Assembly: GCF_019802285.1 (NCBI RefSeq)
Contig: NZ_JAIEUJ010000002.1
Span: 248,001-312,000, forward strand
DNA: 64,000 nucleotides
Direction of reading: 5' to 3'
DNA from: Novilysobacter antarcticus
GTDB taxonomy: Bacteria > Pseudomonadota > Gammaproteobacteria > Xanthomonadales > Xanthomonadaceae
The stretch's first letter is position 1. The number at the start of each line of letters is the position of its first letter. Below the pieces are notes generated by a model, which saw only the letters and a program-made list of their open reading frames with translations, did not search any database and was not told the DNA's origin. Positions 4,837 to 15,200 of this stretch are shown here, piece by piece. The position numbers and the translations under genes are program-made.

Positions 4837-6684
4837 ATGGGCAACGGCCCCGGCCATGCCTTACTGGCATGGCTACACACACGGATGGCAACGCTGGGCG
4901 TCCGCGCGATGGACGCCTGGACCGTCGTCCTGCGTGGCTATCGCCGACCACTGGCGTGGCTGACGCTGCAGCTGCGCTTCGCCTTCTTTCCGTTGCTGGC
5001 GGCGGCGGCGATTGGCTGGCTGGCGTGGGACTGGACCCATGAGCGTTCTCTGGATGCCGCCGAGGATGCAATCTTCGACCAGGTATTGCGGTGGCGGCCG
5101 ATCGAGCCGACGCCATCGGGCCGGGTGGTGGTGGTCGAGATCGACGACTGCTCGATCGAGTACTTCCGCAGTGTGGGGGAAGGTGGCTGGCCGTGGAGCC
5201 GCGCCCGCCACGCCGACCTGATCGACGGGCTCGACCGCGCCGGTGTACGCGGGATCGGATTCGATGTCCTGTTCGCCGATCGCTCCGCGCAGGACCCCCA
5301 GGGCGATGAGTTGCTGGAAGAAATGGCCAAGGCGGGCGACGGCCGGTTCCTGTTTGCCGCCTCGCGCCTGCACCGCGACTTTGACGCTCGCGCATTACTC
5401 ACCGCCGACCTCGCGCCCGCGGCGTATCCGCGCACGCGCGGCGCAGCGACGCCCGGGCCAACGGTCGCGCTGATGCTGCCCTACGGCCAAGCCATGGCGC
5501 GCCACAGCGCGCTGGTCAATGTCGCCCGGGCCGAGGACGGCGTGGTGCGCGACGTCCTGCTCTATCTGGACGCGGGCGACTGGAACATCCCCGCGCTGCC
5601 GATGCGCCTTGCAGCCCTGGCGGATGACGCCCCGGCAACGGTTCGGCATCCGCCAAGCCCATTGTTGCGGGTCAACTGGCGGGCCCGCTCGCAACTGCCC
5701 TATGCGAGCGCGGCAGACGTCATCGAGCAGCGCCCGATCTGTCACACCGAAGCGCACCCGATGCCATCCTTGACCGACACCGTGGCCCTGGTCGGGTTCA
5801 CCGCGGCGGGCATCAACGATATCAAGCCGACCCCGGTCAATCGCGCGATGCCCGGGGTGGAGGTCCTCGCCGAGGCGACCGAGGCCCTGGTGGCCGGAAG
5901 CGCGATCCGGATGCCACCAGGTTGGGTGAAGTACGTGCTCGCCGCGTTGGCGACCCTGCTCACCACCCTCGTGTTCTGGCGCGGACAGCCGCACAAGGAC
6001 GTGGATTCGGTGTTCGTGGCCATCAACGCGCTGCTGTTGTTGATCGCCTTCGCCGGGCTGACGTTGTTCGGGTTCTTCCTCGACATCTTTGCCTGCGTGG
6101 GCTTCATCAGCCTGTGTTTCGGTGCGTGCCGGATGTACTCGGGCGTGCAGCGCGGACGCGCGGACGGCAACAGCGACTACACCGTCGAGCATGATCCGGC
6201 CGCCGAGCCGTGGACGGCGGTGGTGCGACTGCGCCTGCTGCCAGACGCCACCTTGTCGGCGCGCACGTACAAGGTCCGGCGCCGCGAGTATCGGCGCGTC
6301 CTGCGCCGCTACGTCTATGCCGAGGACGGCATTGTCATGATCGACGGCGTGGTGGAGCGCAAGCACGTCATGACCGCGATGCTGGACGACATCGTCGTCC
6401 TGCTGTGGAACGGCAACAGCGAGGCCGCGCTGCGTGAGCGGGTCCGCAACGATCTGGATGCCCTGCAGGCGGAGCTGGTGCGCTATCCCGGCGCGCCGGC
6501 AGCCAGCGCGCAACTGGCGATCGCTTTTGCCATTTCCAAAACCGGTGGGGACAACCCGGACCAGCGCCGTCTGAAACTGCGCGGCCTGCTGGGCCAGGAC
6601 TTCAACCAACGCCCCGAGCGGCCACTGGCCGACGCCATCACCTTGACTCACACGGGCCCAACGCCCGATGGAGAAATTGCATGA
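4837..6684 (+). CDS. CHASE2-domain membrane protein with an uncharacterised C-terminal region
   Basis: The 615-residue product has one N-terminal membrane segment (about 49-66) and a large extracytoplasmic CHASE2 sensor domain (about 70-360) with the usual VVVVEIDD..S and W-P-W-SR pattern. A cluster of three hydrophobic helices follows (about 363-430), and the last 185 or so residues should be cytoplasmic. In most CHASE2 proteins this place is taken by a histidine kinase, GGDEF or adenylate cyclase domain. Here I recognise none of these, so the output is unknown. The stop overlaps the ATG of the M48 metalloprotease by ATGA, which implies coupled translation and a shared pathway. The ATG start at 4837 is plausible but has no strong Shine-Dalgarno. 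Confidence 0.85.
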   Translation: MGNGPGHALLAWLHTRMATLGVRAMDAWTVVLRGYRRPLAWLTLQLRFAFFPLLAAAAIGWLAWDWTHERSLDAAEDAIFDQVLRWRPIEPTPSGRVVVVEIDDCSIEYFRSVGEGGWPWSRARHADLIDGLDRAGVRGIGFDVLFADRSAQDPQGDELLEEMAKAGDGRFLFAASRLHRDFDARALLTADLAPAAYPRTRGAATPGPTVALMLPYGQAMARHSALVNVARAEDGVVRDVLLYLDAGDWNIPALPMRLAALADDAPATVRHPPSPLLRVNWRARSQLPYASAADVIEQRPICHTEAHPMPSLTDTVALVGFTAAGINDIKPTPVNRAMPGVEVLAEATEALVAGSAIRMPPGWVKYVLAALATLLTTLVFWRGQPHKDVDSVFVAINALLLLIAFAGLTLFGFFLDIFACVGFISLCFGACRMYSGVQRGRADGNSDYTVEHDPAAEPWTAVVRLRLLPDATLSARTYKVRRREYRRVLRRYVYAEDGIVMIDGVVERKHVMTAMLDDIVVLLWNGNSEAALRERVRNDLDALQAELVRYPGAPAASAQLAIAFAISKTGGDNPDQRRLKLRGLLGQDFNQRPERPLADAITLTHTGPTPDGEIA

Positions 6685-7997
6685 AGACCATCAGCAAACG
6701 CATCGGCGTGGCGATCCTGCCCGCGCTGCTCCTCACCGCCGGCGCCATTGCGGTGGCCGCCGAGATGCCAGCGATAGTGCACAAACCTTCGGTCGAGGTG
6801 CGCAGCGGGCCGGACTTCAACGCCGGGAAAATCGCCGTACTGCAGCGCAACGCGGCAGTGAAAATCATGGACCAGAACGGCCTGTGGTACCGGCTGCAGA
6901 TGGCCGACGGCGCCAGTGGATACGTGCGCATCAACGATGTGCGGGTGGCAAGCGCCGGTGCCGAGACGCCTGCGGCCAACAGTCAGGCCCTGTTCGGCGG
7001 CAATTCCGGCCAGGGCAGGAGTACCGAGACGGCGAGCGTGCGCGGCATCACCGAAAGCACGCTGCGGACGGCCCGCAACGATGCCGCTGGCCTGTCGCAG
7101 CTGCAGGCCTACAGCGTCAGTGCAGAGGCCGCCGCGACGTACGCGCGCAGCAAGGGCTGGCAGCCGGTGCGCATCGCCTGGGGACCGGATGCGGCGGCCG
7201 CGCGCGGGAGCGCTGGCCAGGCAACCCAGGCTGACAAGCGGGCGACGCTGTCAACGGCGCGCGGACTGCTCTCCCGCCTCGGCGGCGGCGCCATCGCCGA
7301 CAGCGCGATGCGGGTCGCCGACCGTGCGGTGGGCAAGTCGGAACAGGAGCTGGCCGCCGAGGAGGTGGAACTCGGGCCCGCGATTGCCGGCCGGGTGCTG
7401 GGCGCAGCGCCGCTGTGGGCCAACCCGGAAGCGCAGAAGCGGGTCAATCTGGTGGGACGTTGGGTGGCCTCGCAGACCTCGCGACCGCAGTTGCCATGGA
7501 CCTTCGGTGTCATCGAGGACGGCGAGATCAACGCCTACGCCGCTCCGGGCGGCTACATCCTGGTCACCCGCGGCATGTACGACCTGCTCGACGACGATGC
7601 CGAGCTCGCGGCAGTGATCGCCCACGAACTGGGTCACGTCGTCCAGCGCGACCACTATGAAGTGATCCGCAAGCAGGAAATCGCCAAGGTCGGCAAGGAC
7701 GTTGCCATGGCCCAGATCCGGCCGCAGGGCATCGCGGCGGATTTCGCCCGCGATTACGTCAACACGCACGGCGCGGCGGTGATGATGAGCAGTCTGGACC
7801 GCGACGCCGAGTACCGCGCCGACGAAGCCGCCGGGGTGTATCTGGCGCGCGCCGGGTTCGACCCGCTGTCGTTCTACGCGGTACTGCAAAAGATGGCCGC
7901 CTTGGGCACGCGTCCGGCGCGAATGTCGCAGCTCTACCGCACGCATCCACCGCTGCAGGCGCGCATGGATCGGCTCGACCAGCGCGTCCACCGCTGA
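6681..7997 (+). CDS. Secreted SH3-domain M48 family metalloprotease
   Basis: This 438-residue protein has a signal peptide (hydrophobic residues 7-27, cleavage probably after the AVAA near 27), a bacterial SH3 domain (about 32-88, VEVRSGPDFNAGKI...GYVRINDV), a spacer, and an M48 peptidase domain. The zinc site HELGH is at residues 315-319, with the third ligand likely the Glu of DRDAEYRADE near 377. It should act in the periplasm, perhaps on envelope proteins like BepA/LoiP, although the SH3 domain at the front is unlike those. Its ATG lies inside the CHASE2 gene's stop (ATGA). An earlier start is excluded by this coupling and by the good signal peptide. Confidence 0.92.
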   Translation: MKTISKRIGVAILPALLLTAGAIAVAAEMPAIVHKPSVEVRSGPDFNAGKIAVLQRNAAVKIMDQNGLWYRLQMADGASGYVRINDVRVASAGAETPAANSQALFGGNSGQGRSTETASVRGITESTLRTARNDAAGLSQLQAYSVSAEAAATYARSKGWQPVRIAWGPDAAAARGSAGQATQADKRATLSTARGLLSRLGGGAIADSAMRVADRAVGKSEQELAAEEVELGPAIAGRVLGAAPLWANPEAQKRVNLVGRWVASQTSRPQLPWTFGVIEDGEINAYAAPGGYILVTRGMYDLLDDDAELAAVIAHELGHVVQRDHYEVIRKQEIAKVGKDVAMAQIRPQGIAADFARDYVNTHGAAVMMSSLDRDAEYRADEAAGVYLARAGFDPLSFYAVLQKMAALGTRPARMSQLYRTHPPLQARMDRLDQRVHR

Positions 7998-8567: not shown

Positions 8568-9938
8568 TCAGCCTTCGCCGGCCACCGTCATGCGCCCGAC
8601 CAGAATCGATCCGGTCCGGATGTGCGAACGGTGATCGACGTCGCTGCCGACCGCCTCGATGGCGGCGAACATGTCTTTCAGGTTGCCGGCGATGGTGATG
8701 CCATCGACCGGATACTGGATCTGGCCGTCCTGAATCCAGAAGCCGCCCGCACCACGGGAGTAGTCGCCGGTAATCGTGTTCACGCCCTGCCCCATCAACT
8801 GGGTCACCAGCAGGCCGGTGCCCATGCCGGCCAGCATCGCCTGCAGGTCTCCGGCATTGCTGGCCACCTGCAGGTTGTGCACGCCACCAGCGTTGGCGGT
8901 GGTCTGCAGGCCCAGGCGCCGCGCCGAGTAGCTGCCAAGCACGTAGCGCTGCAGCACGCCGCCTTCGACCAGCGCGGACTCGCGGGTGGCGACCCCCTCC
9001 GCATCGAACGAGGACGAGCGGAATCCGCGCAGCAGGAACGGCTGCTCATGCAGGGCGAACCACTCGGGAAAAATCTGCGTGCCCACGCTGTCGAGCAGGA
9101 AGCTTGCGCGGCGATACAGGGCGCCGCCCGATACCGCGCCCAGCAGGTGCCCGACCAGTCCACGCGCAACTTCGGCGGCGAACAGCACCGGATACGCTCC
9201 CGTGGAAACCTGGCGCGGCGCCAGGCGCGAGATCGCCCGCTCGGCGGCCTTGCGACCGATTGCGCTGGCCGGTGCGAGGTCTTCGGGCGCCAGCGCAATG
9301 TCGTACCAGCCGTCGCGTTGCATCTGGTCGCCACGGCCGGCGATCAGCGCGCAGCCCAGGCTGTGGTGGGTGCCGCGCTCGCGGCCGACGAAGCCGTGCG
9401 AGTTGGCATACACCGAAACGGTGCTGCCACTGGTCGCCGAGGCGCCATCGGAGTTCTCCAGCCGTGAATCGGCATCGCGACCCGCCTGCTCGCAGGCCAG
9501 CGCCAGATCGATCGCCTCATCGGCCTGGATATCCCACGGGTGCCAGCTGTCGAACTCGCGCAGGTCGGTCGCCATCAGCTCCGCATCGGCCAGCCCGGCG
9601 GCCGGATCACGCTCGGTGTGGCGCGCGATCGCGCAGGCCTGGTCCACTGTTGTGGCCAGGCTCTCCTCGCGCAGGTCGGCGGTGGAAGCGCTGCCCTTGC
9701 GGCCGTCGAAGTAAACCGTGACCGCGATCGACCGGTCGCGGGTCGATTCCACTGTCTCCACCTCGCCCATGCGCACGCTGACGTTCAGGCCGGAATCCTC
9801 CGAACATGACACCTCCGCCTGGTCGGCGCCGTTGGCACGGGCCGCGTCGAGCAGCCGCCGGGACAGGCCGGCCAGCATGTCCAGCTGTTCCTCGCTGTTG
9901 GGAAGATTGGATGGAGGGGTCGGGCGCAGCTCGTTCAA
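8568..9938 (-). CDS. pmbA: Metalloprotease TldE/PmbA
   Basis: PmbA (TldE) is the partner of TldD in the TldD/TldE protease, which matures microcin B17, degrades CcdA and trims other peptides. TldE carries the fold but not the zinc ligands; TldD supplies catalysis. I place the start at the TTG at 9938 (product MNELRPTPP..., 456 residues) because AAGGA precedes it at a good distance and the length then matches E. coli (450). An upstream in-frame extension to 10151 reads as low-complexity Arg/Pro and overlaps darP. The conserved core [20 protein letters not shown] starts near residue 55. Unusually, tldD lies in the same neighbourhood. Confidence 0.93.
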
Positions 9939-10045
9939 TGTCTTATCCTTGCAGGCTGTGGTTCCGGGCGATCGCTCCGGAGTCTGTTCTTGATGCGGTG
10001 GCCGCGGGGCAAACCCGCGACGACCGGAATAGGTGGGGTGCGACG

Positions 10046-10675
10046 ATGCGTGGCATAGACGAGGAAACCGGCGAATTCCGTGGCGAGAGCCGCAGCCAGC
10101 AGCGGCGCGAAGCGCTGGAAGTGGCAGCCATCGCCGAGCAACTGGTTGCACTCAGCGAGGCGCAACTGGCACGCATGCCGGTCCCCGAAGAGCTGCTCCC
10201 CCACATCCGCGAGGCACGCCGGATCACCTCGCACATCGCGCACAAGCGCCAGCTGGCGTTCCTGGCCAAGCAGATGCGGCGCGAGGATGACGCGGTGATG
10301 GAAGCGATCCGCGACGCGCTCGATGAGAAAGGCGATACGGCGCGGCGCGAAACCGCGATCATGCATCGCATCGAGGCTTGGCGTGACCGCCTGCTGGCCG
10401 AGGGCGATGCCGCGCTGACCGAGCTGCTGGACCTGTACCCCGACGCCGACCGCCAGGGCCTGCGCCAGCTCGTCCGCAACAGCCTGGAGGAGCGCAAGCG
10501 CAACAAGCCGCCACGCGCCGCCCGGGAGCTGTTCCGGCAGTTGCGCGAACTGATCCTGCTGCCCGAGATGCCGATCGCCGGAACAGCAAGCTCCGCGACC
10601 GACGACGCCGAGGACCCGGCCGCTACCGGCCACGACGCACGCGACGACGACGCGGCCGAGCAAGACCAGCCGTAG
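10046..10675 (+). CDS. darP: Ribosome biogenesis factor DarP (YjgA, DUF615)
   Basis: DarP assists late maturation of the 50S subunit's peptidyl transferase centre. The 209-residue product is highly charged and mostly helical, with the family blocks [12 protein letters not shown] (about 17-28), [17 protein letters not shown] (about 52-68) and [28 protein letters not shown] (about 147-174, given here as a recognisable segment). The ATG at 10046 has AGGTGG 9 nt upstream. The C-terminal 30 residues are acidic and disordered. It is divergent from pmbA, the arrangement also seen in E. coli, and convergent with tldD, leaving only 13 nt between their ends. Confidence 0.93.
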
Positions 10676-10688
10676 ACGGCCTGCGGCG

Positions 10689-12131
10689 TCACGCCTGGGT
10701 GCCACCCACGGTAATCCCATCGATCAGCAGCGACGGCTGGCCGACCCCGACCGGCACGCTCTGGCCGTCCTTGCCGCACACGCCGACACCCTCGTCCAGG
10801 GCGAGGTCATGTCCAACCATGCGTACCTTCTGCATCGTCTCCGGCCCATTGCCGATCAGCGTGGCGCCCTTGACCGGCGCGGTAATCCGGCCGTCTTCGA
10901 TCAGGTAGGCCTCGGTGGCCGAGAACACGTACTTGCCGCTGGTGATGTCGACCTGGCCGCCGCCGAAATTGACCGCATACAGCCCGCGCTTCACCGAGCG
11001 GATCATCTCCTCCGGGTCGTGCTTGCCGGCGAGCATGTAGGTGTTGGTCATGCGCGGCATCGGCAGGTGGGCGAAGGATTCGCGGCGACCGTTGCCGGTC
11101 GGCGCCATGCCCATGAGGCGCGCGTTGAGGCTGTCCTGCATGTAGCCCACCAGCACGCCATCCTCGATCAGCGTCGTGCACTGGGTCTGTTCGCCCTCGT
11201 CGTCGATGTTGAGCGAACCGCGACGCCCGGGCAGGGTGCCGTCATCGACAATCGTCACGCCCGGCGCGGCGACCCGCTGGCCCATGCGGCCGGCGTAGGT
11301 GCTAGTGCCCTTGCGATTGAAATCGCCCTCCAGGCCATGGCCGACCGCCTCGTGCAGCAGCACGCCGGGCCAGCCGTTGCCGAGCACCACCGGCATGACG
11401 CCGGCAGGCGCGTCGACCGCCTCCAGGTTGACCAACGCCTGGCGCAAGGCCTCGCGGGCCCAGGCTTCCGGCTTGCCGTCGGCGAACAATTCGGCATACC
11501 CGTACCGGCCGCCGCCCCCGGTGTAACCCGATTCGCGCCGGCCGTTCTGCTCGACGATCACCTGCACGTTGAAGCGCACCAGCGGACGCACATCAGCGGC
11601 GAGGATGCCGTCACTGCGGGCCACCAGAATGGTATCCACGCCGCCCCCGAGGCTGACGATCACCTGTTGGACCCGCGGGTCGGCCGCACGCAGCAGCTTG
11701 TCGATGCGGCGCAACGCCTCGACCTTGTCCTCGTTGCCCAGCGAATCCACCGGATCGACCGGCGCGTACAACGCCTGCGCGTTGGCCCGCACCAGCGGCC
11801 GGGTGGTCATGCTGCCGCCGTCGCGTGCGATCGCCCGCGCCGAGGTGGACGCGGCGATCAGCGCCTGTGCATTGATCTCATCGGAGTAGGCGAAACCGGT
11901 CTTCTCGCCGCTGATCGCGCGAACGCCGACGCCCTGCTCGATCGAGTGCGCGCCGTCCTTGACGATGCCGTCCTCCACGCTCCAGCTCTCGCGCCGGGCG
12001 TGCTGGAAATACAGATCGCCAAAGTCGATCCCCGGACCCAGCAGCGTGCCGAAGGTTCGCTCAAGCCCCCCGGCATCGAGCCCGGAAGGCAGCAGGAGTC
12101 GGGATTCGGCAAGTTGCAGGGTTTGGGTCAT
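10689..12131 (-). CDS. tldD: Metalloprotease TldD
   Basis: TldD is the catalytic zinc subunit of the TldD/TldE heterodimer. The HExxxH site appears as HEAVGH at residues 260-265, within [14 protein letters not shown]. With the ATG at 12131 ([14 protein letters not shown]) the protein has 480 residues, equal to E. coli TldD. A longer open frame to 12269 is proline/arginine-rich and not family-like. The gene follows yhdP with a 134-nt gap, the E. coli order (rng-yhdP-tldD). Its partner pmbA lies 0.75 kb downstream, on the other side of darP. Confidence 0.95.
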
Positions 12132-12265
12132 GGGATCTTCTGGGGACGTAGGGACGGAACGGGCGGCCCACCTGACAGGGAGGCGGCTCACGGGGGACAT
12201 CGGCGGGACTCGGTAGCGCATACAGGCAAGGCCACCCGGACGATATGCGGGCGACTGGCGGGGCT

Positions 12266-15200
12266 TCAACCGGAGGGCGGCGCGGCGCCTTGTTCGACCG
12301 GCGGTTTGACCGGCGGCTTCACTGCAGGTTGGACCGGCGCCGGGCCGTTGCGCTCAGGCTCCCGGCTGACCACATCCACATGCGGGTCCTTCCAAGGGCC
12401 GCTGACCCGATAGGTTTTCGCGCCGATCTGGCCCAGCGGCTTGCGCAGCACCGCATTGGCCGCCGCGCCGATCGCCGCGCCCACCGGACCACCGGCCAGT
12501 GCCCCGGCCACGGTCAGCAGGTTGCCCGAACGCGGCAGCACTTCGATCGTCTGGTTGAAGGTCTCGGCCCGCAGGTCGGCTTCACCGCGGATGTTGATCC
12601 GAGCGGCCGGCCCCTCGATGCGCAGGTCGTCGCTGCTCGCCGTCCCGCCGCCAAAGCGGATGTCGCCGCTGGCCTGGTTGAACGCAAAACCCTTGGAAAA
12701 GAAGTCACGGAAGTCCAGCATCAGCCGGCGCGGCAACTCGGCGACGCTGAGCAGGCCCAATACGCGTCCCGCACCGGGTTCCACCTCCAGCAGGCGCCCG
12801 TCGCGCACCTCGCCCTTCAGGTTGCCGGACACCTTCACCAGATCGAACTGCATCGGGCCTCCCGCCCACTCGGCGGCCAGCGACATGCGGCCCTCGCCGC
12901 CGTCGAGGCGGCCGACATGGCCCAGACCCGTGAGCAGGCGGCCGAAGTCGGTGCTGGCCAGGTCCACTTCAAAACGTGTCCGCGCGGCCTTCCCACGCCC
13001 GGTCCAACTGCCCCGGGCATCAATCCGCTGGCCCGGCGTCGCGGCGCTGAAGTGCTCGATCTGCAGGCCCGTGCCCGTCGCCCTGGTACGCAACGATGCC
13101 CGCCCCAGCACCGCGTCGTCCAGGCGCAGGTCATCGATCTCCAGTGCCAACGGCGGGATGCGCGCCGGATCGATGTCGTCGTCGTCCGCTGCGGCGGCGA
13201 CAACGCGCGGCGCGGCTTTGGGTGCATCGGCTGCTTTTTTGGGCAGGCTCCAGTGGACACGTTCAAACCGGCCCGCTACGGCAGCGCTGGAGGACTCCGG
13301 CACCTGCAGCCGGCCCTGCAACCTGGGGCCATCCGTCTGTACCAGCAGCGCGCCGCGGGCCTCCGGCGATACGCGGACGCGCGCCTCGCCGAACTCTCCG
13401 CCCAACAACTGCAACCGATCGGTGCGGATGTCGATCCGGCCCAAGGGCACGCCGCCACCGCTCCCATCACCTGCCCCGGCCCGGGCCAGACCCACCCAGC
13501 CGATCGCATCCAGAATTCGCGCACGCCCGCTGGCGATCAGTCCCGAGGCCGGTGCCGGCGCCGGCAGCGATCCGCTGCCCAGCGCCACCCGGATCCCGGT
13601 GCGCTGGCCGCTGCTGCGTGCGCGCAGGGCCAGAACATCGCCAAGGACGACCTGCACCTCGCCCTGATCGAGCGGCAACGCCGTCTCGACGGTTGTCGCC
13701 AGTCGTTGGCCAGTCGGCTTCGCCAGCGGCGCGGGCAGCGTCAATGCCGTACCCACCAGGTCGGACTGGAGTTTCAGTCTTGCGGCATCCCCGCTGCGGT
13801 CGCCCGCTCCGGGCACGAGCAGGCCGAGCGTCCACGAGGAGCGACCCTGCATGTAGGGCGCAAGCCACCCCAGCTCGGGCGCACGCGCCAGAAGCGTGTC
13901 GGCACCGAACTGGGCCTGCAGGTCGGCCTCCAGCACGTTGCCCGCGTCGCGCACCGCGTCCTTGCCCGAGCGCAGGGACAATTTGCCCGGGCGACCGCCC
14001 ATCTGCACGTCCAGCCGGTCGGCGCGAAAGCCGTTGTGGGTGTAGCTCACCGGACCGCGGACCTGCTCGAACGCGAGTCCCCAACGCGGGTCGGACAAGC
14101 TGGCGCCGGCCAGGCGCACGTTGCCGTCGATCGCCAGCGAGCCATGCTCCACCATCGGCAGCGCCATCGCGAAAGCCACCTCGGCAGGACCGGAGCCCTT
14201 GACCGCGGCGAACGTCTCCGGATTCAGCTGCTGCAGGGGGCTGGCACGCAGCAAGCCCAGCAGTCGCGACACATCGCTGCTGCCCTTGGCCTCGACCGCC
14301 AGCGTCCCGTGGTCATAGTGGTCGACACTCGCCTTGATGGCGGGGATCGTGATTCCGGCCAGGGTGCCGTGACCGGTGATGTCCAGACCGTTGCCTATGA
14401 AACTGGTCTGGAGGTCGAGCCCGGTCGCCGCCGGCCAGTCCGGCTGGAACGCGACGGTGGCGTCGGTGATGTGAGCACGGGCCTCGAAGCGACCGGTGTG
14501 GTCGTCAAATGGCCAATCGTCCAGGTCGCCGGAAACAATCGCGCGGCCGTCGCGGACGACCCCGTCCACCAGAGCGGTGTCCAACCAGTGCAGCAACGCC
14601 TCAGGCATCAGGTGCCGCACCCAGAAGCCCTTGGCCACCGGCAGGCGGGTCTCGTCCACAGTCGCGGCCAAGTCGATCCGCGGACGGCCGCCCTCGCCGG
14701 TCCAGCCCAGCCCGCCACGGATCTGGGCACCGAAATCCGGACCCTTGATGCGCAGCGCGGACGTGCCCACCTGCCAGCCGTCCAGACCGCGCCAGCCGGC
14801 CACGTTTCCGTTCAGGTGAACCACATGCGCAACCCCGAAGCCGCGCGGCCAGTCGAAGCTCATCGCCGCAGCCGGATCCAGCTGCGCGCTGAAGCCCTCC
14901 GCGTCGCCGCGTACGTCGGCCGCCAGCCCGTTGATGCCCGGCGCATTGCCAACCGTCGCAAACCCCAGACCATCGATGCGCACACCGCCCTGCATTCCGC
15001 CGTCGCGGCTTCCGTGCAGGTCGACCGCCGACAGCGAGGCGTGGGGACGCGCGTGCAGCAGCCAGTGCCGCAGCGGACCGGGCAGCTGATTGCTGAGCAC
15101 GGCCAGCGATGCCAATGGCTGCAAATCGATATGGCCTGTCACGAGGCCGTACTCGCGGCCGGCGGCGAGCGTGAGCGGATCGAAACGGTAGTCCTCGCCC

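Follow-up and report, generated by a model that had tools for sequence, protein, structure and literature searches.

What does a membrane receptor act through when its sensory domain is followed by no recognised enzyme and a probably secreted protease is encoded directly behind it? The question is raised by two neighbouring genes of Novilysobacter antarcticus (family Xanthomonadaceae), located in the 64,000-nucleotide stretch of contig NZ_JAIEUJ010000002.1 between positions 248,001 and 312,000, which is called here the window. The first gene encodes a CHASE2 receptor and the second a protease with a bacterial SH3 domain and a peptidase M48 domain. The best reading of the data is that the receptor carries a non-catalytic, probably degenerate cyclase domain and works with, or controls, its protease. 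In its full form, to which a probability of roughly one half is assigned, the pair would be the two-gene descendant of a three-gene envelope module, with a palm-like non-catalytic domain in a receptor that would work by contact, gating or positioning the protease.

The assignment of both genes to one unit is well supported. Among 149 genomes of the family, the window genome included, a CHASE2 orthologue was detected in 29 (E at most 3.7e-96) and a protease orthologue in exactly the same 29 (E at most 3.6e-89), with the next-best family matches being far weaker (1.4e-37 and 3.0e-48, respectively) and both found in genus g42. The protease gene followed the CHASE2 gene, adjacent and on the same strand, in all 31 orthologue loci fetched (L003–L030 and L032–L034, L034 being a duplicate of L005). 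Neighbours were checked for 18 of these loci, most with 1.5-kb flanks, and ispA was located upstream of the pair in 16 of them (the exceptions being L010 and L026). Four genomes of the window's genus (G003, G055, G083 and G109) lacked both orthologues, and ispA directly adjoined the DUF4870 gene there. Because of the complete co-occurrence, the constant adjacency and the joint absence, the pair seems to have been gained or lost as one block. The preliminary description of this DNA, made from the letters alone, had proposed that the two genes could form one unit, putatively an envelope-response unit with a wall-binding protease, and had named their adjacency in relatives as the check; in the family, the pair was not found apart in most relatives, and the CHASE2-cyclase/SH3/M48 operons of other bacteria, described below, also support a unit of the two genes. 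A second copy of the pair was observed in G023, at a contig end. Genome G099 contained, apart from its normal pair, a lone SH3-M48 paralogue (L040, 4509–5927, + strand) 52% identical to the window protease.

Related operons with an intact enzyme were found outside the pair-bearing genomes. In five of five g42 genomes, the CHASE2 open reading frame (ORF) included a class III cyclase with intact motifs (Guanylate_cyc, E 1.5e-29 to 9.1e-31) and was followed by SH3 and M48, each in an ORF of its own. At E up to 1e-40, the profile of these five receptors gave matches in 110 of 303 class genomes, many of the matches spanning mainly the cyclase half. Among the 30 best-scoring loci fetched from these matches, an M48 ORF was present within the 1.5-kb flanks in 18 (in 17 of the top-scoring 20) and an SH3 ORF in 17, with weak matches in two (L074 and L075). 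L067, for which the fetched stretch was short, had SH3 only, and L064 and L070 had neither. In a phylum-wide draw of 299 genomes, E 1e-70 was passed by six, two of which were already in the set above; L120 and L121 of the four new loci had both SH3 and M48, and L122 and L123 had neither in their flanks. Other arrangements were also noticed: in L104 (66–3125) and L075 (52–3558; G226) M48 was located upstream of the CHASE2-cyclase gene and was itself preceded by a weak SH3 match, and in L063 (432–2556; G181) CHASE2 and cyclase occupied two ORFs ahead of the SH3 and M48 ORFs, representing either a split gene or a frameshift. The window type differs from the operons by its fused SH3 and M48. The full-length profile (E up to 1e-30) matched six of 200 order genomes, two of the window type and four of g42, all belonging to the family. 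The C-terminal profile matched one genome in a draw of 369 from the class, that of the window itself, no other pair-bearing genome being known in this draw and the reach of the profile being uncalibrated.

The two trees and the profile–profile alignment connect the pair with these operons. In the CHASE2 tree (63 rows, quick method, midpoint root), 17 window-type rows grouped with 12 M48-linked cyclase receptors, L064 and L101 with a support of 99 in the Shimodaira–Hasegawa-like approximate likelihood ratio test (SH-aLRT), and ten GGDEF rows lay away from this group. In the M48 tree (70 rows), 27 window-type rows, 22 operon rows and L040 came together with a support of 94/93, and 20 other M48 proteins of the family were placed apart. 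The alignment of the window type with the cyclase receptors was unbroken from the first membrane segment to just past the last one (E 9.3e-46, window residues 53–441) and ended at the output domain. The pair appears to descend from a sensor-cyclase/SH3/protease operon, with the enzyme end of the sensor later lost or replaced; the cyclase form is presumed to be the older of the two because of its wider spread. An origin of the window receptor from the family's CHASE2 proteins of the GGDEF type was considered and rejected, as these formed a separate clade and no M48 match was detected at the 14 other CHASE2 loci of the family that were fetched (14 of 31 such genomes); the six of these loci scanned with Pfam (L041, L042, L043, L044, L047 and L049) all encoded CHASE2-GGDEF proteins.

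Two single CHASE2 proteins of the clade were looked at separately. L064 (1408–3228, + strand; G155) was 37% identical to a g42 receptor over nearly the whole length and lacked the three motif patterns, with no M48 match in 7 kb; it is apparently an independent dead cyclase. L101 (3235–5046, + strand; G229), located in the tree among the M48-linked cyclase receptors, had a different C-terminus that matched nothing recognised, and 8.5 kb of sequence contained no M48 match.

The C-terminal region of the window receptor had been described as free of any known output domain, and by sequence this holds. No Pfam model matched its 184 residues, at E up to 1 the CHASE2 protein had no NCBIfam match, and a search of PDB sequences with the C-terminal profile found none at E up to 10. 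Over the 31 members, models of cyclases, GGDEF domains and kinases were absent at E up to 10 (HMMER filters drop most matches above about 0.1), neither PF00211 nor PF00990 was matched, and the Pfam scan of the C-termini returned only seven unrelated weak families (best E 0.0075). The orthologue alignment contained no DIRGF-type motif, the Asp of which binds metal in class III cyclases, no GDxVN..R-type Asn/Arg motif and no GGDEF motif. Seven residues were invariant in the 31 members: R35, E53, Y54, R56, R59, E76 and K78 (domain numbering). Comparison of the region by hhalign with the single CHASE2 proteins L064, L101 and L102 gave E of 0.24, 0.093 and 0.13. The top local hhalign segment with the cyclases coincided with the 'GDAIMAFW' strand, the place expected for it in an alignment of palms; it was insignificant and is not counted as evidence.

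A structure search of the same region had also been proposed in the preliminary description. The AlphaFold2 model of the C-terminus showed the order strand-helix-strand-strand-helix-strand-helix, with a core at about residues 459–586. In the VIA list, which re-ranks Foldseek's own list, GGDEF, PelD or class III cyclase chains made up 44 of 50 rows (counted by eye from the row titles), including the first 43, with Z of 7.6–9.1; the best were ImcA (9.1), the cyclase Rv1625c (8.7), LapD (8.6) and PelD (8.3), and the remaining six rows included two CRISPR Csm complexes. Since the sequence comparison gives no support, the palm-fold assignment rests on the position of the region, the order of its elements and a weak, one-sided structural signal. 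Together with the ancestry, this moderate-confidence model suggests that the C-terminus is a catalytically dead palm of the cyclase/GGDEF type rather than an unrelated domain. The preliminary description remains correct in that no known enzyme was recognised by sequence, but a palm-like domain is suggested where it had seen nothing familiar.

Cyclases were surveyed in 38 genomes: the 29 with the pair, five of g42 and four of the same genus without the pair. No class I cyclase was detected in any of the 38, and class III cyclases were found in ten, namely five g42 and five g25 genomes. Thus 24 of the 29 pair-bearing genomes had no class III cyclase match, and none was present anywhere in the window genome. 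General loss of cyclic AMP (cAMP), judged from the class I and class III searches, was considered as the cause of the change in the receptor; it is an incomplete explanation because the five g25 genomes keep class III cyclases in addition to a non-catalytic receptor. In Lysobacter enzymogenes, the CRP-like Clp is described as a cyclic di-GMP (c-di-GMP) effector (PMC11139211).

Selection was evaluated as the ratio of nonsynonymous to synonymous substitution rates (dN/dS; simple Nei-Gojobori method), the C-terminus being taken as the residues from 170 to 25 from the end. In the three pairs formed by the window, L003 of its own genus and L032 from Lysobacter sp. A03, dN/dS was 0.09–0.12 for CHASE2, 0.27–0.41 for the C-terminal core and 0.6–2.0 for the last 25 residues of the receptor, with the M48 domain being the most constrained (0.025–0.042). 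The more distant comparison of the window with L033 gave 0.21 for CHASE2, 0.58 for the core, 0.72 for the last 25 residues and 0.13 for M48. In 23 other pairs of 75–97% identity (20 of them distinct owing to the duplicate locus), dN/dS was 0.03–0.26 for the C-terminus and 0.08–0.34 for CHASE2, the former lying above or below the latter. The C-terminus is therefore under purifying selection in most lineages, and this constraint is relaxed around the window.

The following mechanism is proposed for the pair. The ancestral module would have consisted of a CHASE2-class III cyclase receptor, a secreted SH3 protein and a secreted M48 metalloprotease; in the window lineage, SH3 and M48 would have been fused and the cytoplasmic cyclase of the receptor turned into a non-catalytic palm-like domain. 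The periplasmic CHASE2 domain would bind the co-encoded SH3-M48 protease and gate or position it. The cytoplasmic domain would relay a conformation, and possibly ligand binding, inward or outward with no cAMP made. Such an engage-and-gate receptor is favoured because, with the cyclase motifs gone, no recognisable enzyme other than the protease is left in the unit, and around the window the protease is also its most constrained part.

Several observations weigh against this interpretation. The window-type rows lie on a long branch of the CHASE2 tree, and ten more M48-linked cyclase receptors are located on its far side, so the M48 linkage is not limited to one clade. The M48 grouping is slightly under the star threshold of the tool, which also gave a long-branch warning. 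The hhalign comparison of the C-terminus with cyclases and GGDEF domains was insignificant (E 0.26 over 18 columns and E 0.36 over 15, respectively). The model of the C-terminus, built from four sequences, is modest (predicted local distance difference test score, pLDDT, 58; predicted template modelling score, pTM, 0.57), and the full-length model was poor (pLDDT 37) and was not used. The best VIA Z of 9.1 is near the value of 7–8 which, according to the tool, models without a match typically reach, and Foldseek itself gave no match at E below 0.001, placing an amidase and small ferredoxin-like proteins on top and the first GGDEF domain at rank 10. Furthermore, the C-terminal core evolves fast near the window, where it may be losing importance, the g25 genomes have class III cyclases elsewhere yet still a non-catalytic receptor, and no CHASE2 match lies within 9 kb of the extra protease copy in G099 (L040).

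Some of these points fit other accounts of the C-terminus. In place of a degenerate cyclase, a small ferredoxin-like domain of unrelated origin, having a ligand or partner of its own, could have been swapped in; no homology to cyclases was detected by hhalign, the Foldseek list is headed by an amidase and small ferredoxin-like proteins, and strands 2 and 3 of the model are separated by about 15 residues. In cyclases, this stretch is usually shorter. The replacement is nevertheless rather doubtful, as the position and the order of elements resemble a palm domain, chains of the cyclase, GGDEF and PelD types dominate the VIA rows, and loss of motifs within a retained cyclase domain exists in the CHASE2 protein L064. 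That the region is an active enzyme with an unrecognised nucleotide chemistry is most improbable: the invariant charged residues (R35, E53, R56, R59, E76 and K78) and the purifying selection in most lineages would suit it, but both the metal and the Asn/Arg motifs are missing and evolution is quicker near the window. It is also very unlikely that the receptor is decaying and the protease alone matters. The relaxed C-terminus and last 25 residues in the window's closest pairs and the additional lone protease in G099 agree with decay, whereas CHASE2 is constrained near the window, the C-terminus is constrained in the 20 other distinct pairs, and both genes are absent jointly.

Another account concerns the direction of signalling. 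The SH3-M48 protein could bind or process an envelope ligand, with CHASE2 reading the result and the dead cyclase domain contacting a cytoplasmic partner. As the related operons keep intact cyclases, outside-in cAMP signalling is likely to be the ancestral direction, and known CHASE2 cyclases, such as CyaD1, CyaD2 and CyaK of S. meliloti, are sensors. Such an outside-in sensor is considered less likely than the reading preferred here, as no linked gene for a cytoplasmic partner was seen in the 18 loci checked, mostly within 1.5-kb flanks, and the conserved partner is the protease. The receptor that engages and gates its protease could, in turn, follow a principle of the LapD/LapG kind evolved independently: the dead cyclase domain would read a cytoplasmic nucleotide or partner and gate the wall-associated M48 protease inside-out, having arisen by turning a cAMP-producing CHASE2/SH3/M48 operon around after the loss of the cyclase. 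This specific version is considered unlikely. In the LapD-LapG system, a c-di-GMP-binding cytoplasmic module sequesters the protease; LapG belongs to the cysteine proteases, and HAMP and EAL parts are present in LapD, a membrane receptor with a non-catalytic cyclase-type domain. The system is the closest case in its way of working, and the likeness is one of working only, LapD being described to exert inside-out control over a periplasmic protease (PMC3032553).

The features of the locus are collected in Table 1. Both gene coordinates and the ATGA overlap agree exactly with the preliminary description, and the signal peptide, SH3 domain and HELGH motif reported there for the protease were recovered. 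Above the cut-off, CHASE2 was the only Pfam family in the receptor (151.6 bits against a cut-off of 26.3), and SH3_3 and Peptidase_M48 (104.8 bits against 20.3) were the only ones in the protease. As one membrane segment precedes CHASE2 and three follow it, residues from about 436 onward should be cytoplasmic. The HEXXH motif was conserved in 31 of 31 members, the exact HELGH in only four. When candidate start codons of the protease were compared, an ATG at the exact ATGA position was present in 8 of the 31 distinct members, the window included, a different candidate start no later than the CHASE2 stop in 15, and the nearest candidate 22–156 nt past the stop in 7; L018 was not assigned. Just downstream of the pair, at 8568–12269 of the window, lie two minus-strand ORFs, which we take to be PmbA/TldD-type metalloprotease genes, with a yjgA-like ORF between them.

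Table 1. Features of the CHASE2 receptor and SH3-M48 protease genes (positions in the window)
Feature	Position	Strand	Evidence
CHASE2 membrane receptor gene, 615 aa	4837..6684	+	ORF + Pfam
First membrane segment, about residues 46-64 of CHASE2 protein	4972..5028	+	hydropathy
CHASE2 domain, residues 68-375, predicted periplasmic	5038..5961	+	Pfam PF05226, E 3.8e-44
Three membrane segments within residues 362-435 of CHASE2 protein	5920..6141	+	hydropathy
C-terminal region of CHASE2 protein, residues 432-615 (184 aa), predicted cytoplasmic	6130..6681	+	
ATGA stop/start overlap of CHASE2 and protease genes	6681..6684	+	sequence
SH3-M48 protease gene, 438 aa	6681..7997	+	ORF + Pfam
Sec-type signal peptide of protease, about residues 1-27	6681..6761	+	hydropathy + sequence; cleavage site by eye
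Bacterial SH3 domain of protease, residues 37-82	6789..6926	+	Pfam SH3_3, E 8.8e-8
Peptidase M48 domain of protease, residues 251-435	7431..7985	+	Pfam PF01435, E 6.3e-30
HELGH zinc motif of protease, residues 315-319	7623..7637	+	sequence

The CHASE2-class III cyclases of S. meliloti resemble the window type in having CHASE2 and an output domain behind the membrane segments, and CyaD1, CyaD2 and CyaK are described to increase cAMP synthesis on sensing the plant protein uL2 via NsrA (PMC13001267). The window type differs from them by having no cyclase motif or Pfam cyclase match and by its pairing with a protease. The operons of g42 and other Gammaproteobacteria are like the window in CHASE2 and M48 relatedness, the SH3/M48 partners and usually gene order, but their cyclase is intact and SH3 and M48 are separate genes. 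BepA and LoiP have the M48 domain in common with the window protease, although the NCBIfam matches (E 2.9e-21 and 5.6e-13, respectively) fall far short of the curated cut-offs (75.8 bits against 570 for the BepA equivalog NF052400). The window protease has no tetratricopeptide repeat match in Pfam and carries an SH3 domain. In the Burkholderia BiofilmReg system, a CHASE2 histidine kinase is likewise co-encoded with a secreted, possibly wall-binding LysM/FecR protein, but its output is a kinase with a response regulator and the term protease is absent from the paper (PMC5192318). In the mtxA operon of magnetotactic bacteria, a CHASE2-cyclase gene adjoins a gene for a signal-peptide protein, MtxA, which, by its description there, is neither an SH3 nor an M48 protein (PMC4439547). 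No report of a CHASE2/SH3/M48 operon was found in titles or abstract beginnings among the papers listed, a mention within article bodies being possible.

CHASE2 receptors are widespread. The factors recognised by them were stated as not known in 2016 (PMC5192318). The conserved SH3/M48 partner, common to the versions with an intact and with a dead cyclase, is a concrete candidate for the link between a CHASE2 receptor and the envelope, and the two versions offer a natural comparison which may separate the control of the protease from the cAMP output.

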